IMG/VR virus record: IMGVR_UViG_3300047409_000026
Span: 1 to 39,933 of that record
From: a virus
DNA: 39,933 bases
Direction: 5' to 3' (one strand)
Shown here: positions 2,375-39,020 of the stretch, one piece after another
Layout of the letters: every line of letters begins with the position of its first letter
How positions within the stretch are numbered: position 1 is the stretch's first letter
The notes under the pieces: model-generated
Seen by the model: only the letters and a program-made list of their open reading frames with translations
Databases searched by the model: none
Told to the model about the DNA's origin: nothing
Program-made: the position numbers and the translations under genes

Positions 2375-3136
2375 TTAGTACTTCCTTCCTTGAAACATGA
2401 AGCCTCGATTGTCGGCAAGAATGAGTTCCGGATACACGCGCTTGCCGTCATCGTGCAGCAAGGCAAAACTCATGGTCCATGATACCGCACCATCCTTTAC
2501 ATACTTCGCGTGACAGGGATCCATGATAGATCCCACGTTCATTGTGAAGCGGGGAGTAACCTTCCCGTCGAAACCATAAGCCCTGGCGGTGATAAAGGGC
2601 TGGTGAGTGTGACCGAAGATGATGTTCTTTTCTGAACCATATCGCTTGATGAACTTAGTGTCCCACGCCTGAGGCGTGGAACTATAACCGGAGGACTCAT
2701 GTCCGTGTACGGCGTACGTGTTAGTTGCGACTCGCACGGGCCCGCGTACGTAACGTATGTCGAGGTCGGACAGACCAAACAGGCTGTCCATTTCCAGTGC
2801 GTCGAGTGCGGCAAGAGGTGCCGCGTACTGCTTGACAAAGTCCCGCAGTCGGAGGTCGTGATTACCTTCTAGCCAGGAGATCTTCGCGTCGGGCGCCGCA
2901 GCCCTCAGGCTGCGGAGTACTCCGGCCCATCCGGAGATGTGCCGCTGAAGAGTCGGGGCATACTCTCCCGCAGTTCCCTTGGACCAGCGACTGACCTGCG
3001 GGAAGTCGATGCCGTCACCGATCTGGAAGATCGCGTGAGGCTGAATGTCTTCGATGACCTTGATGATTTTGCTGAGCATCAGCTCATCGTGGTAGGGATA
3101 CTGAACGTCAGGAATAACGACCGTTGTCTTCGTCAT
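2375..3136 (-). CDS. Calcineurin-like metallophosphoesterase
   Basis: Metal-binding motifs of the family are in order: PDVQYPYHD near residue 10 (D.x.H-like), GDGIDFPQV near 40 (GD), WLEGNHDLR near 92 (GNHD), VHGHESSG near 145 and IFGHTHQP near 173 (GHTH). Predicted to hydrolyse phosphomono- or diester bonds with two metal ions; the phage substrate is unknown. Neither candidate ATG (3145 or 3136) has a ribosome site, but a perfect TATAAT lies at 3149-3144, so I favour a leaderless message starting at the ATG at 3136. Divergent from the gene at 3166. Confidence 0.8.
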   Translation of the reverse strand: MTKTTVVIPDVQYPYHDELMLSKIIKVIEDIQPHAIFQIGDGIDFPQVSRWSKGTAGEYAPTLQRHISGWAGVLRSLRAAAPDAKISWLEGNHDLRLRDFVKQYAAPLAALDALEMDSLFGLSDLDIRYVRGPVRVATNTYAVHGHESSGYSSTPQAWDTKFIKRYGSEKNIIFGHTHQPFITARAYGFDGKVTPRFTMNVGSIMDPCHAKYVKDGAVSWTMSFALLHDDGKRVYPELILADNRGFMFQGRKY

Positions 3137-3143
3137 GTCATCC

Positions 3144-3149
3144 ATTATA
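3144..3149 (-). promoter_or_regulatory. -10 box (TATAAT) for the leftward regulator group
   Basis: Perfect TATAAT on the minus strand. A start about 7 nt downstream would coincide with the ATG at 3136, which fits a leaderless transcript. The -35 is weak (TTCTTC at 18-nt spacing). Confidence 0.5.
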
Positions 3150-3165: not shown

Positions 3166-3402
3166 GTGAAGAAGTACAACGTGATGTACAAGGTCACACA
3201 AGAGGGCCAGCTCGGAAACTTCCGTGGTGAAGTAATGGCCTCCAGCTTCACTCAGGCGGCCCGTACAGCCACTCCTGCGCCCGATGAGGAGTGGCTGTAC
3301 GTCGGCGACATAGAGGCCCCGCACGGAGTGGTCGTTCGAGTCAGCACCATTCTCCACATCCAGGTGTCCGAATACGTGGAGCCTGCCGCAAAGGCACTGT
3401 GA
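3166..3402 (+). CDS. Hypothetical protein (78 aa)
   Basis: GTG start with an AAGGAG ribosome site 7 nt upstream (VKKYNVMYKVTQ...). Small alpha/beta protein with no recognised family. Its stop codon lies inside the TGTGA half of the Crp-type dyad that precedes the WhiB-like gene. Confidence 0.65.
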   Translation: MKKYNVMYKVTQEGQLGNFRGEVMASSFTQAARTATPAPDEEWLYVGDIEAPHGVVVRVSTILHIQVSEYVEPAAKAL

Positions 3403-3413
3403 TCTAGGTCACA
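3398..3413. promoter_or_regulatory. Perfect Crp/GlxR-type operator TGTGA-N6-TCACA
   Basis: The 16-mer TGTGATCTAGGTCACA is a full match to the Crp-family consensus. It spans the stop of the previous gene and ends 19 bp before the TTG start of the WhiB-like gene, where a bound protein could block or activate transcription. Two more full matches are at 38903 and 38958. Confidence 0.6.
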
Positions 3414-3432: not shown

Positions 3433-3837
3433 TTGGCCAACTACGAAATCTTCATGCAGGAAATGGGCTACAAGAAGCCCGACGACTGGAGAGCTGACGC
3501 CAAATGCGTCGGCCATCCGTCGGAACTGTTCGAGTTGTCGGAAGCCGACAGCCCTCAGGCTGTCGGTATGACCCTCAGTGAGCTAGCTGAGCACAACCGT
3601 CTCAACTTCATTCAGGCAGGCGAGATCTGCATCGAGTGCCCAGTCTTCTGGCAGTGCAAGGAGGACGCCACCGATGAGGATCGCCGGTGGACAGTCCGGG
3701 CGGGTGAACCGCCCACGGGGATCCAGTATCAGTGCAGTCGTGGCCACATCCTTGACGAACCCGGTCGCTGCGTCGAGTGCAAGCGCCAGGTGATGAAGGA
3801 CTACAGAGCCAAGATGAAGGGCCTCAAGTCGGCCTGA
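3433..3837 (+). CDS. whiB-like: WhiB-like Fe-S transcription regulator (134 aa)
   Basis: TTG start with CGGAGGAAA ribosome site. It carries the Wbl pattern: WRADAKC near residue 24, then AGEICIECPVFWQC with CxxC-x5-C near residues 63-73, then WTVRAGEPP near 86 in place of the usual G[VI]WGG turn. The four cysteines would hold a 4Fe-4S cluster and the protein would bind the principal sigma factor. The C-terminal extension (CSRGHILDEPGRCVECKRQ) adds a second possible zinc site not usual in short host Wbl proteins. A 9-bp in-gene hairpin is at 3545-3566. Confidence 0.85.
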   Translation: MANYEIFMQEMGYKKPDDWRADAKCVGHPSELFELSEADSPQAVGMTLSELAEHNRLNFIQAGEICIECPVFWQCKEDATDEDRRWTVRAGEPPTGIQYQCSRGHILDEPGRCVECKRQVMKDYRAKMKGLKSA

Positions 3838-20012: not shown

Positions 20013-20978
20013 TTAGACGTTAGCGCCCACAGACGATGCGGACTCGGCACGGATGAGTGCCGCCTGACGGTACAGAGACCAACCGGCAACACCGTACCAG
20101 CCCAGAGGCTGGAAGCGGGTCAGCTTGTCGGTCACAGGACCACGGACGGTGTGGAACTCCTCCGCAACAGCCTCTGCGAGAGCCTGCTGTCCGGTGAAGT
20201 ATGTGTTGTACACATCGACAGTTCCACCAGCACCGGAGTCAGAACCCACACCAGTGGTACGCGGAGTGACAATGTATGCCGCTCCCTCGTACTCGCCGAT
20301 CTCTCCGGCCCAGATGTTCTCTGCCGCAGAGTACTCGTGAGGCTGACGCCAAGAACCTGCACCGGTCTCCGCGCGGAGATCGTGAGCCACATCCGGGTGG
20401 ATGTAGGCAGTGAACAGGTTCCCCTTGTTCGGCTGAGCAAGGTTGGTACGCAGCTTGGTCACTGCCAGACGTGCGTACGTGGAGCTGAAGATGTCAGCCG
20501 CCGTGGTACCCACGGTGGTCTGAGCACCGTTGTAGACGGGGCCAGAGGCACCGTTGTCACGGATGTAGTTCGTTCCGCCATTGAGGACGTTACGGACAAT
20601 CACATCGACGGAGTCGATGAGGTTCCACGCAACCTGGTTGGTGAGACCCTCGGTCACGTCGGTGAAGCTGAACAGGTCCAGCTTGTTCGACACGAGGATC
20701 GAGTTACCGTACTCGTTAAGGGTAACGGTGACCTGAGTCGGGTTACCTGCCGCCACAGCGTCAGGGTCCACCAGCTCATTCAGGGGCGTGATTGCCTGTG
20801 CGAGGTCCTGGTACAGCTCGAATACAACGCTGGAACCAGGCATTGCCTGCTGAACAGGTCGCTTGTCGGCGATCTGTCGGAACATTGGCTGCGCGCGAAG
20901 GGCGAACTCAAGAGCACGGTCGTACGTGGTCTGGACAAGGTTCGCCATTACGGCAGTACCAGTAAAGGCGTTAGCCAT
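20013..20978 (-). CDS. Major capsid protein (N4-gp56-like, 321 aa)
   Basis: Begins MANAFTGTAVMANLVQTTYDRALEFALR and has VVFELYQDLAQAITPLNE, ILVSNKLDLFSF, AYIHPDVAHDLRAETG and GAAYIVTPRTT, the order seen in N4-gp56-family HK97-fold capsid proteins. Follows the scaffold gene and precedes a strong terminator, as expected for the most expressed virion protein. Confidence 0.85.
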   Translation of the reverse strand: MANAFTGTAVMANLVQTTYDRALEFALRAQPMFRQIADKRPVQQAMPGSSVVFELYQDLAQAITPLNELVDPDAVAAGNPTQVTVTLNEYGNSILVSNKLDLFSFTDVTEGLTNQVAWNLIDSVDVIVRNVLNGGTNYIRDNGASGPVYNGAQTTVGTTAADIFSSTYARLAVTKLRTNLAQPNKGNLFTAYIHPDVAHDLRAETGAGSWRQPHEYSAAENIWAGEIGEYEGAAYIVTPRTTGVGSDSGAGGTVDVYNTYFTGQQALAEAVAEEFHTVRGPVTDKLTRFQPLGWYGVAGWSLYRQAALIRAESASSVGANV

Positions 20979-35699: not shown

Positions 35700-36611
35700 T
35701 TACGACTTTGGAACCTTGAGCTTGGCCCAGCTGGCCTTGCCCGGATATCCATCTGCGGCAGATCCCTCATAACCCAACTTGCGCTGGTACCAGGCATATG
35801 CCTTTACGTCAGCTCGGGTGAACTCCTCGCTCGGCCCGACCTTGTAACCCTTGTATCCCTCGGCGACGAGCCGCTTGCCCATTGCCTTGACTAGAGCGTG
35901 CTTTCGTCCCAGCCGGAAGAAACCCACGCCAGGGAAAGGGGCATAGACTGGGACAGGCTTAGGCTCAGGCTGACTGGAGGCGCCATCAGCGCCTCCATCA
36001 ATCACCACCTGGACAGAAGAACGGAAGTCCTTCATGTCAATGCCCTTGGGATCCGACTTCCAGTCGGACCACTCGTCATGCCCGATAGTGGACTTGGCCG
36101 ACCAGCCATAGTGGCGGCAGATGGCTGCCGCCGCCTTGACCATGGCAGTTACTTGAGCCGCTGGCCATGGATCGACGCCATCGCCCTTGTTCACACACTC
36201 GAAGCCGTAGAAGCAGTCATTGCCATCCACCGCGCCGGACGAACCTTCATGCTCGTTCGTGGCCGGAGGATAATCCCCATAGGACTCATTGATCACTGCG
36301 GTCTTGACATCAGGATCTCCACCACCGGCATGATTGGCGCGGCCCTTCGACATCAGATAGACCACGCCGGACTTGTCGATCACTCCGTGACAGAGCGGCC
36401 CCGGAAGGGCCGAACTGCCGTCATAACAGTAGTCAACGATCCCCGAAGTCCCTGAAGCGGTGTGATGGATAACCACTCCGTTGACAGGCCCGAAGTCCTT
36501 GCCGGTAGCGGCGTCACGCTCATGCGTGCGCCAGTCCTTGTATTCCACCACCTTGAGACCTTCGGCCTTGAGGGCCGCAAGCAGTATGTCTGCGGTCATA
36601 GGAGTTGCCAT
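35700..36611 (-). CDS. N-acetylmuramoyl-L-alanine amidase endolysin (303 aa)
   Basis: Amidase_2 domain at about residues 40-200: zinc ligand His49 in VVIHHTASG, ANHAGGGD near 97 and STIGHDEWSDWKSDP near 180. A Pro-rich linker (QPEPKPVPVYAPFPG) leads to a C-terminal domain with EFTRADVKAYAWYQRKLG, a peptidoglycan-binding-like unit. Start at ATG 36611, overlapping the terminase stop (TAATG). Cuts the wall at lysis. Placed far from the holin. Hairpins at 35975-35997 and 36113-36132. Confidence 0.85.
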   Translation of the reverse strand: MATPMTADILLAALKAEGLKVVEYKDWRTHERDAATGKDFGPVNGVVIHHTASGTSGIVDYCYDGSSALPGPLCHGVIDKSGVVYLMSKGRANHAGGGDPDVKTAVINESYGDYPPATNEHEGSSGAVDGNDCFYGFECVNKGDGVDPWPAAQVTAMVKAAAAICRHYGWSAKSTIGHDEWSDWKSDPKGIDMKDFRSSVQVVIDGGADGASSQPEPKPVPVYAPFPGVGFFRLGRKHALVKAMGKRLVAEGYKGYKVGPSEEFTRADVKAYAWYQRKLGYEGSAADGYPGKASWAKLKVPKS

Positions 36612-38584
36612 TATCCCCACCATCCAGTTGAACCGTTCTGGGCCTCAGCCTGAGCCATATGGTCCAGATCGATTGTGATAGTCCGCTCGCGATCGCGAGG
36701 AGACTGGTATTCGTTGCTTACGTGGAAGATGCTGTCCATCTCCCCAATCAGTTCCCGTGCGCGGATCTCCGCGAACCAGAGAGCCATGACAGTATCAATC
36801 TTCTTCTTGGTCTTCACTCCCGGCGGAAGCGGTTCCCATGTAGTCAGCTGTTCAATGAGCGCCTTGACACCTTCAGCACTACGCGCTGGAAGGTGGATCA
36901 GGTTCTCTCCACGCTCATGACCCGAGAACAGGGTTGACATGGAAGCGACGCCGAAGTCGGCGTCCCACTTGTTCGATCCGGTGAAGTGCTCACGGAGGAG
37001 AGTGCCACGAGAAGCAAGAAACTTGTTGATGTCGCGATCCTGCGTAACCATCAGGTTCATGGCGTTCTTCTCGATGCGCCACTCATTGATGTTGTACTTG
37101 ACCGTCAGTTCCTTGATCTTGCCGAAGATATCGTCGGGCTTCAGGTTCCCCTTGGTCCAGACATCGAGAATCCAGCGGATCCCCGTCATCCGATCCACCC
37201 CCAGGACAACCGCAGCAGAGTGGCCCGTCATCGCAGGGTCGAACCCGCCAATGACATATAGCCCATCCATCCCGTTCTGGCGATGGCCCGGCGCACCCTT
37301 TTGCATCGGTCCGACCGCACGCATTCCGTCAACACATCCAGTAACCGCCTTGACCGGAAAAATAGCATCCTCGACTACGGATTCCTGTTGGTAGACCAGA
37401 GCCCAGTTCCTGGGAGACATCTGGCTACGGCGCTTCCTGAGCGCCGGACCCGTCCACATCGGGTAGAGACCATCTTCATCGATCTCCACAACCTGACGGC
37501 CGAGGATTGAGACTGGCATTCTGTTCGTCCTGGGCCACAGAGTGACCCAGTCCTCCGGATCGTCAGCATACTCAAGCACTGCTGGCTGAGTAAGATACGT
37601 CCAGGGAGACTCTTCATCATTGTAGTACTCAGGCTTGATGATCTCGCCATACAGATCTACGGGAGCAAGTCGTGTTCCGATGAGCAGCATCTTGGCGCCG
37701 AACTGAGAGTTGCGGTTGTACACCTCTCGCTGCATCCAGTCCATCTGCTTGGTGTACTCATGGGCGTTCTTGCCAGTGACGGTGTCGTCGAAAATAATGA
37801 GGTCAGCTCGGGAGCCGTAGATGTGACCGCCTACACCAAGAGCTTGAACTGTTGGACTTGCCTCACCGGAGTCACGAGCTGCTGAACTGACGTAGATTGA
37901 GTCAGCTGTCCAAGCAGCAGAGTTGGCATCGAAGCCCCCTTCAGGGGCGAAGTCAACCTGAAGCTTCTGGTAGTTCTTGTTCTCCGATGCGAGGCGATCC
38001 TTGATTCCGCGGAGGAACCTCTTGGCCATCTCCTGAGTCTGGGATACGATGATGACACGGATGTTCGGGTCTTGACAGATCCGGTATGTAACATAGTTAA
38101 TCGTGACTGTCGTGGTCTTGGCATGCTCCGGAGGAGTATTGATCAGGATGAAGTCAGGCTGTCCCTGGACGAAAGTCTGAGAAGGATGAAGGTTCCTGGG
38201 AAGGCGACCCTCGAGAAGGTCCACCCACTGAAGGTGATGGTTGAACAGCTTCGTGTCGAGATACTCCATGCACCATTCCTCGAATGGTGCAATGTTGGTC
38301 CTGTTGTTCTCGGCTTCACCATTATTGGAAATCATAAGGCGAAGTCTGTCAATCTCTTCGCGGAATCCAGAATCACTCTGACGGAGATACTTGTATTGGG
38401 CCTCCGTGAGGCCCATATCAAGGCAGGCTTCCTTGATCGATCTACCATTCTTTGCGTACTTCAGAAACGTTGCCTTACGAATCTGAGAATCAGATCTGGC
38501 CTGAGAACGAAGATTCCTCGGAGTTCTGCTCCGAGGATCAGTCTTAAGGATACGACCGTCTTCCATCTTGTATACCGTAGCCAT
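36611..38584 (-). CDS. terL: Terminase large subunit (657 aa)
   Basis: N-terminal basic helical part with a helix-turn-helix-like KEACLDMGLTEAQYKYL, then the ATPase: P-loop PPEHAKTTT near residue 154, IIFDDTVTG near 260 (Walker B), and the C-terminal nuclease with GGFDPAMTGHSAAVV near 445. Packages phage DNA with the portal. Start has GGAGGGG, the first gene of the leftward block; no separate small subunit is seen. Confidence 0.9.
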   Translation of the reverse strand: MATVYKMEDGRILKTDPRSRTPRNLRSQARSDSQIRKATFLKYAKNGRSIKEACLDMGLTEAQYKYLRQSDSGFREEIDRLRLMISNNGEAENNRTNIAPFEEWCMEYLDTKLFNHHLQWVDLLEGRLPRNLHPSQTFVQGQPDFILINTPPEHAKTTTVTINYVTYRICQDPNIRVIIVSQTQEMAKRFLRGIKDRLASENKNYQKLQVDFAPEGGFDANSAAWTADSIYVSSAARDSGEASPTVQALGVGGHIYGSRADLIIFDDTVTGKNAHEYTKQMDWMQREVYNRNSQFGAKMLLIGTRLAPVDLYGEIIKPEYYNDEESPWTYLTQPAVLEYADDPEDWVTLWPRTNRMPVSILGRQVVEIDEDGLYPMWTGPALRKRRSQMSPRNWALVYQQESVVEDAIFPVKAVTGCVDGMRAVGPMQKGAPGHRQNGMDGLYVIGGFDPAMTGHSAAVVLGVDRMTGIRWILDVWTKGNLKPDDIFGKIKELTVKYNINEWRIEKNAMNLMVTQDRDINKFLASRGTLLREHFTGSNKWDADFGVASMSTLFSGHERGENLIHLPARSAEGVKALIEQLTTWEPLPPGVKTKKKIDTVMALWFAEIRARELIGEMDSIFHVSNEYQSPRDRERTITIDLDHMAQAEAQNGSTGWWG

Positions 38585-38902
38585 ACCCCTCCAACCTGCC
38601 TTCTAACTAGTATTAACTATGCAACTCAAACGCCGTGCGGCTCAACTACATCGGGGCAGCCCCCAAGGGCTGACCCTCAACCGGAGTAAGGATCCCGAGC
38701 CTGTGAGGACTGACTGTTTACCTGATCATACCCTAACAATGTTCAGCAGTGGTTCTCCATAGTTAACCATCTTCCGGTTGGCCCCCCTTGGGGGGTGCCT
38801 CCGGAGTGTTGTCAGGGAGTCGTCAGATGCTGCACACTCTCTCATCAGGGGGTCATTGTATATATACCCCAAACTTGGGAAGATCGCCTTCGCGCTACTT
38901 GA

Positions 38903-38918
38903 TGTGATTTACATCACA
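38903..38918. promoter_or_regulatory. Perfect Crp/GlxR-type operator TGTGA-N6-TCACA
   Basis: TGTGATTTACATCACA, full match in both half-sites. 55 bp from a second copy, about five helical turns. Confidence 0.6.
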
Positions 38919-38957
38919 CCCCTACATCCCTTACGTACCAAGGGTTGTTTAGGTCCG

Positions 38958-38973
38958 TGTGACGCAGATCACA
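38958..38973. promoter_or_regulatory. Perfect Crp/GlxR-type operator TGTGA-N6-TCACA
   Basis: TGTGACGCAGATCACA, full match. Third copy in the window, together with those at 38903 and 3398. Confidence 0.6.
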
Positions 38974-39000
38974 TGTATTTATGGTGGAATTTAGATGGGA

Positions 39001-39020
39001 CTCACCACTCACCACTCACC
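39001..39020 (+). repeat. Tandem 7-bp repeat (CTCACCA)
   Basis: CTCACCA occurs twice in a row followed by CTCACC, 28 bp after the second Crp-type dyad. Confidence 0.6.

Follow-up and report, generated by a model that had tools for sequence, protein, structure and literature searches.

The window described here, that is, the whole stretch of DNA that was analysed, is the viral IMG/VR record IMGVR_UViG_3300047409_000026, with 39,933 bases. It contains three exact matches to the Crp-type dyad TGTGANNNNNNTCACA, at 3398-3413, 38903-38918 and 38958-38973. The last two are placed in about 1.35 kb without a conserved gene, which separates the start of terL (38584, minus strand) from the end of the window; this puts them ahead of terL and the other structural genes of the operon. 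Read towards terL on the minus strand, the promoter-proximal dyad (38903..38918) is TGTGATGTAAATCACA and the distal dyad (38958..38973) is TGTGATCTGCGTCACA; the third dyad (TGTGATCTAGGTCACA, 3398..3413, plus strand) stands directly before the ribosome-binding site (RBS) of a whiB-like gene. It is argued below, with a probability of about 70%, that host cyclic AMP (cAMP)-Crp is a class I activator of the late terL/structural promoter through the proximal dyad.

In 100 dinucleotide shuffles of the window, exact dyads occurred with a mean of 0.07 and a maximum of 1, and three were never reached. The preliminary description of this DNA, in which three perfect TGTGA-N6-TCACA sites had been reported, two of them 55 bp apart in a noncoding region, is confirmed in this respect. 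When two mismatches were allowed, the window held 14 dyads against 20 expected, i.e., no excess, and the signal is therefore confined to the perfect sites.

The nearest annotated relatives are Streptomyces phages of the Beephvirinae (Dennebes, WRightOn, Manuel, Immanuel3 and FlowerPower), whose TerL is about 77-81% identical to that of the window, and several kilobases found in relatives are missing from the window. Judged by these matches, the window represents part of the genome of a phage related to the Streptomyces Beephvirinae; a search of bacterial genomes with its TerL found no relative. The terminase large subunit gene terL (36611..38584, minus strand), assigned by PHROG 38 and by its identity to the Beephvirinae TerL, is gene 1 of the structural operon, and gene 2 is an endolysin gene (35700..36623, minus strand), assigned by PHROG 880 and by synteny with Dennebes gene 2. 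The structural genes of the isolates are oriented rightward from the left end, and the majority of the early genes leftward from the right end.

Conservation of the dyads and geometry of the predicted late promoter

The comparison set consisted of 46 terL-upstream sequences with enough DNA, many of them mutually close relatives. Absence of the dyads from related phages had been named in the preliminary description as a result that would speak against it, and the opposite was found: a dyad with at most one mismatch is located upstream of terL in 42 of the 46 sequences, and two dyads in 28 of them. In relatives with the pair, the spacing is 55-57 bp, with the exceptions of 46 (L021) and 69 (L034). 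Among the distinct dyads, 22 of them distal and 21 proximal, the arms are near-invariant and the six central bases are variable, and this combination of invariant arms and variable core is as expected of a protein operator. The first base of the proximal dyad is most often C, in agreement with the mycobacterial Crp consensus C/TGTGAN6TCACG/A, as quoted in PMC3400605.

A conserved GGGTATATATA block is located downstream of the proximal dyad. TANNNT was taken as the -10, and the positions of dyad centres were counted from predicted, not mapped, starts; on this basis, the centre of the proximal dyad in the relatives falls at -60.5, -61.5 or -62.5 wherever the hexamer exists. With one representative per cluster, TANNNT was found at gaps of 40-42 after the proximal dyad in 10 of 17 cases, compared with 0.09 per gap elsewhere, and the set with this gap includes L030, L031 and L035, whose flanking sequence differs strongly. 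In the window, the conserved TANNNT corresponds to TACAAT (38855..38860, minus strand), the predicted -10 box for transcription of terL and the structural operon, with a predicted start near 38848, from which the centre of the proximal dyad lies at -62.5 and the distal dyad at about -117.5. A sigma-70 scan of this late promoter gave no -35/-10 pair and recognised no -35, as expected of an activator-dependent promoter. Both features of a class I promoter are found at the predicted promoter: the dyad is centred near -61.5 (positions more distant by whole turns would also fit), and the -35 is poor or missing. As the target of the dyads, this promoter had not been recognised in the preliminary description.

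The earlier proposal that the spacing of the pair suits cooperative binding or looping finds no support: the 55 bp between the starts of the 38903 and 38958 dyads correspond to a non-integral 5.24 turns of 10.5 bp, relatives exist with either dyad alone, and the proximal dyad is already explained by its distance to the -10. The predicted RNA leader folds in an ordinary manner (z -0.52). Between both dyads of the window, there is a further inverted repeat, CCCTTACGTACCAAGGG, at 38928-38944, of which a CCCTTG...AAGGG-like form is retained in many relatives. In L029, L032 and L040-L044, direct repeats of the GTTACC/TTTACC type with 11-bp spacing take the place of the proximal dyad, and these repeats may be bound by a different host regulator.

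Dyads in the early region and in other phages

The whiB-like gene behind the third dyad (3433..3837, plus strand) is supported by Pfam Whib (E 1.3e-05) and a WhiB-like PHROG. The dyad at 3398 is not present in eight isolates. When further relatives were collected through the neighbouring phosphoesterase gene, a dyad with at most one mismatch was found within 700 bp on the whiB side at 20 loci, 32 loci holding at least 600 bp there. Many of these dyads belong to an early promoter with the block GTTTCC-YY-TA: each of the 15 blocks found has a dyad upstream, in eight cases at a gap of 39-41, in four at 50-51 and in three at 62-63, with no other gap occurring. These gaps correspond to about -60/-61, -71 and -83, which are whole helical turns apart, and class I Crp promoters in E. 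coli follow the same whole-turn series of positions. For collapsed loci, the Rayleigh test of this spacing gave p of about 5e-5 to 2e-4, and for the three spacing classes alone 0.06-0.14; the evidence from the spacing of these putative promoters is strong but not blind. The third dyad of the window is of a second sort, located directly before the RBS, and this setting is common to seven loci.

In the early region of four isolates, a one-mismatch dyad, GTGACGCTAGTCAC, is found just before an RBS (L052 41507, L053 40300, L176 41634 and L177 39508). Divergent from the whiB-side genes is a conserved metallophosphoesterase gene (PHROG 221, window 2375-3145), the first motif of which is D-x-Q. In cAMP phosphodiesterases of the metallophosphoesterase class, the first motif is usually D-x-H. 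Owing to the D-x-Q motif and the lack of a PDB sequence match, the protein was rejected as a candidate cAMP phosphodiesterase, and no link between it and cAMP is therefore claimed.

In the R4 group (Arquatrovirinae), all ten phages examined carry a dyad near the left end of the genome, ahead of the HNH/TerS/TerL operon; six of these dyads are perfect, three have one mismatch and one has two. At a gap of about 36-42 there follows a TATAAG, TAAGTG or TATATA-like element, which resembles TATAAGTG of the Beephvirinae relative L014, and the assignment of a -10 is looser here than in the window's group because the elements are mostly not TANNNT. A perfect dyad appeared in shuffled left ends in 1 of 2000 trials. 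The R4 TerL has no significant similarity to the window TerL. In phiSASD1 and Dubu, a one-mismatch dyad is found in a comparable position, but a -10 is missing at the corresponding gap. VWB contains just one dyad with a single mismatch, located at 20587. A high-GC record (L184/L191) shows both a one-mismatch dyad and the element in front of genes whose translations, judged by eye, are HNH-like and terminase-like.

Several further observations were made in other phages and viral contigs. In phiHau3 (L363), a perfect dyad is also found at the right end (49764), upstream of leftward early genes and with no evident -10. Phage mu1/6 (L365) carries an annotated class IV adenylate cyclase at 325-885, which is of interest for the cAMP link. 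In L059, L066, L080, L125 and L129, noncoding groups of dyads adjoin SOS-box-like GAAC-N4-GTTC palindromes. Dyad pairs with a 71-bp span gave many matches in the viral scan, but these were rejected as coincidental, since they fall within the coding sequence of a gene that is common in lower-GC phages. That gene (L055, L056, L058, L060 and many other contigs) holds two dyads 55 bp apart in apparent coding sequence, which is a warning against taking pairs alone as operators.

The candidate ligand and the alternatives

Perfect dyads are present in all 61 of the Streptomyces genomes sampled (2-11 each, in 5.5-11.3 Mb), compared with 0-3 for the reversed control pattern. Their density in the window is about 100 times that in Streptomyces chromosomes, and the phage 16-mers TGTGACCTGCATCACA and TGTGATCTGCATCACA recur unselected among the Streptomyces host sites. 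Each of four Streptomyces genomes (4/4) encodes one protein with the Pfam domain Crp-HTH (PF00325), and in the two genomes read, its recognition helix is SRETVNK. Of the three dyads, those at 38958 and 3398 agree with GTG(N)6GNCAC, the consensus published for Crp of S. coelicolor (PMC10033298), and the one at 38903 does not. In view of the exact matches, the conserved arms and the occurrence of the same operator in Streptomyces chromosomes, the earlier designation of the dyads as Crp-type operators appears well founded, and host Crp is their likely ligand.

As the regulator, the preliminary description had offered host cAMP-Crp or a phage protein. Host Crp stands as the best candidate: the cNMP-binding domain (PF00027) was found in none of nine phage records including the window, and PF00325 gave no match in the window. 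If Streptomyces is taken as the host group of the window, Crp is encoded on the host side and, in the records searched, not on that of the phage. It is also conceivable that a phage-encoded repressor or activator uses the TGTGA-N6-TCACA operator and that host Crp is uninvolved. Phages commonly encode their own regulators, and the window encodes, in addition to the WhiB-like protein, a sigma-K-like phage factor (1610..2365, minus strand; PHROG 354, E 1.9e-21, with Pfam Sigma70_r4 below the cut-off). We regard this explanation as unlikely: apart from the missing Crp/cNMP-binding protein, the operator, identical 16-mers included, is found in host chromosomes and in phages with unrelated TerL, all of which would therefore need the same phage regulator.

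The distal dyad calls for a separate consideration, since it could be connected with packaging. The direct terminal repeats of the isolates are 253-276 bp long and end in GAGTG right before AGTCCC; from these repeat ends and the alignment, the repeat boundary of the window is placed at GTGAGTCCC (38997..39005, minus strand), where the repeat would stop after GTG. The distal dyad of the window lies about 30 bp inside this inferred end. In seven isolates, 29-30 bp separate the end of the terminal repeat from the start of the distal dyad, and in most relatives the dyad follows the GTG of GTGAGTCCC-like sequences at a distance of 29-32 bp, even where there is no proximal dyad. Such a near-fixed distance favours the view that the distal dyad, or both dyads, form a packaging or terminal-repeat cutting site at which a DNA-bending host protein (Crp, in a role like that of IHF at lambda cos) aids the terminase. 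However, the distal dyad is missing in L031, L179 and L180, where a repeat-end-like sequence persists all the same, and it is shifted by about 35 bp in L024; a dyad that is always present and always equally far from the terminal-repeat cut, as a packaging site would require, was not found. Moreover, the proximal dyad tracks the -10 box and not the repeat end, and dyads also occur far off in the early region, which makes packaging a rather improbable explanation of the dyads. The distal dyad may itself serve in packaging, as a second Crp contact or in both ways, or it may have an architectural role. In the isolate record of Abafar, a longer repeated stretch includes the dyads, perhaps as a matter of assembly.

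The third explanation is that the dyads are recognised by a different host regulator, one whose operator is a similar palindrome, and that this regulator activates or represses the operon; many Streptomyces regulators have short palindromic operators. Against this, TGTGA-N6-TCACA in its full form is the Crp operator of the textbooks, as quoted in PMC4117774, and the whole-turn shifts of -61/-71/-83 are the known class I Crp series, which leaves this regulator with little probability. That the dyads are functionless chance matches is hardly credible for the pair, although the third dyad of the window may be such a match: a single site could be due to chance, and a 55-bp pair does arise coincidentally in the coding gene of other viruses mentioned above, but the arms are conserved against a variable core (22 distinct sequences), the spacing to the -10 box is fixed, and the dyad recurs in unrelated phages.

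Proposed mechanism and comparison with known systems

In the reading that we prefer, class I activation by host Crp, the protein together with cAMP would occupy the proximal dyad at 38903-38918, about 61-62 bp upstream of the start and on the side of the helix suited to activation. From there it would recruit RNA polymerase to the late promoter, in which a -10 box but no -35 can be recognised. The promoter activated in this way would drive terL and the structural operon. The polymerase may carry a host sigma, or the phage sigma-K-like protein may read the -10 block instead. In Streptomyces, cAMP accumulates during germination, and crp or cya mutants germinate poorly (reviewed in PMC5693915); for this reason, virions would be made best in young, germinating hyphae. 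What we infer is the binding of Crp, its dependence on cAMP, the position of the start, an activating and not a repressing effect, the reach over the operon and the physiological sense. The same holds for the earlier suggestion that the dyads report host physiology to the phage.

Several points weigh against this reading. First of all, the relatives are non-independent samples, and several of them are without an exact TANNNT at the gap of 40-42. Secondly, phiC31, SV1 and mu1/6 have no dyad at up to one mismatch. Thirdly, the GTTTCC-YY-TA block was defined after the sequences had been viewed, which is why the early-promoter evidence is not blind. Finally, the proximal dyad at 38903 departs from the S. 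coelicolor form GTG(N)6GNCAC, having A for G in either orientation.

Beyond the window, we lean slightly towards a wider view, according to which at least two unrelated Streptomyces phage groups have made their structural operon, and one of them also the early whiB-side operon, subject to class I activation by the host's cAMP-Crp, so that virion output would be gated by the germination and nutrient signal of the host. Promoters using host Crp are known, and the use of Crp at Streptomyces phage late promoters is what appears new here: no report of Crp-controlled Streptomyces phage promoters was found in the open-access literature, a search from which subscription papers were mostly outside, so that earlier work is possible. 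If true, this would give a direct and testable explanation for any dependence of the Beephvirinae and R4-group phages on the growth stage of the host, crp and cya mutants would become informative phage hosts, and the order of dyad, about 40 bp and -10 box would provide a rule to find late promoters in unannotated actinophages.

Among known systems, the cos region of lambda has a site for IHF, a host DNA-bending protein, near the packaging cut. Similarly, the distal dyad is a candidate site of a host DNA-bending protein at a near-fixed distance from such a cut; unlike at cos, no terminase-binding sites were identified and the dyad is lost in some relatives. In M. tuberculosis, Crp controls whiB genes, as cited in PMC3400605, and a Crp-type site likewise adjoins the whiB-like gene in the window (3398) and in relatives. 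The putative regulatory site in the window differs in that it abuts the RBS and is missing in eight isolates. The GlxR/Crp regulons of Corynebacterium and Streptomyces, with the consensus GTG(N)8CAC and GTG(N)6GNCAC (PMC10033298), use the same operator type in the likely host genus, and identical 16-mers are found in Streptomyces chromosomes, whereas the targets of those regulons are host genes and the phage proximal dyad has A for the S. coelicolor G. The closest comparison is with class I Crp promoters of the E. coli lac type and with the CRP site that precedes Rv2699c of M. tuberculosis at -62.5 (PMC4117774). Unlike these, the promoter proposed here is phage-borne and would drive a terminase/structural operon; like the class I promoters, it combines a dyad near -61.5 with a -10, a weak or absent -35 and shifts by whole turns.
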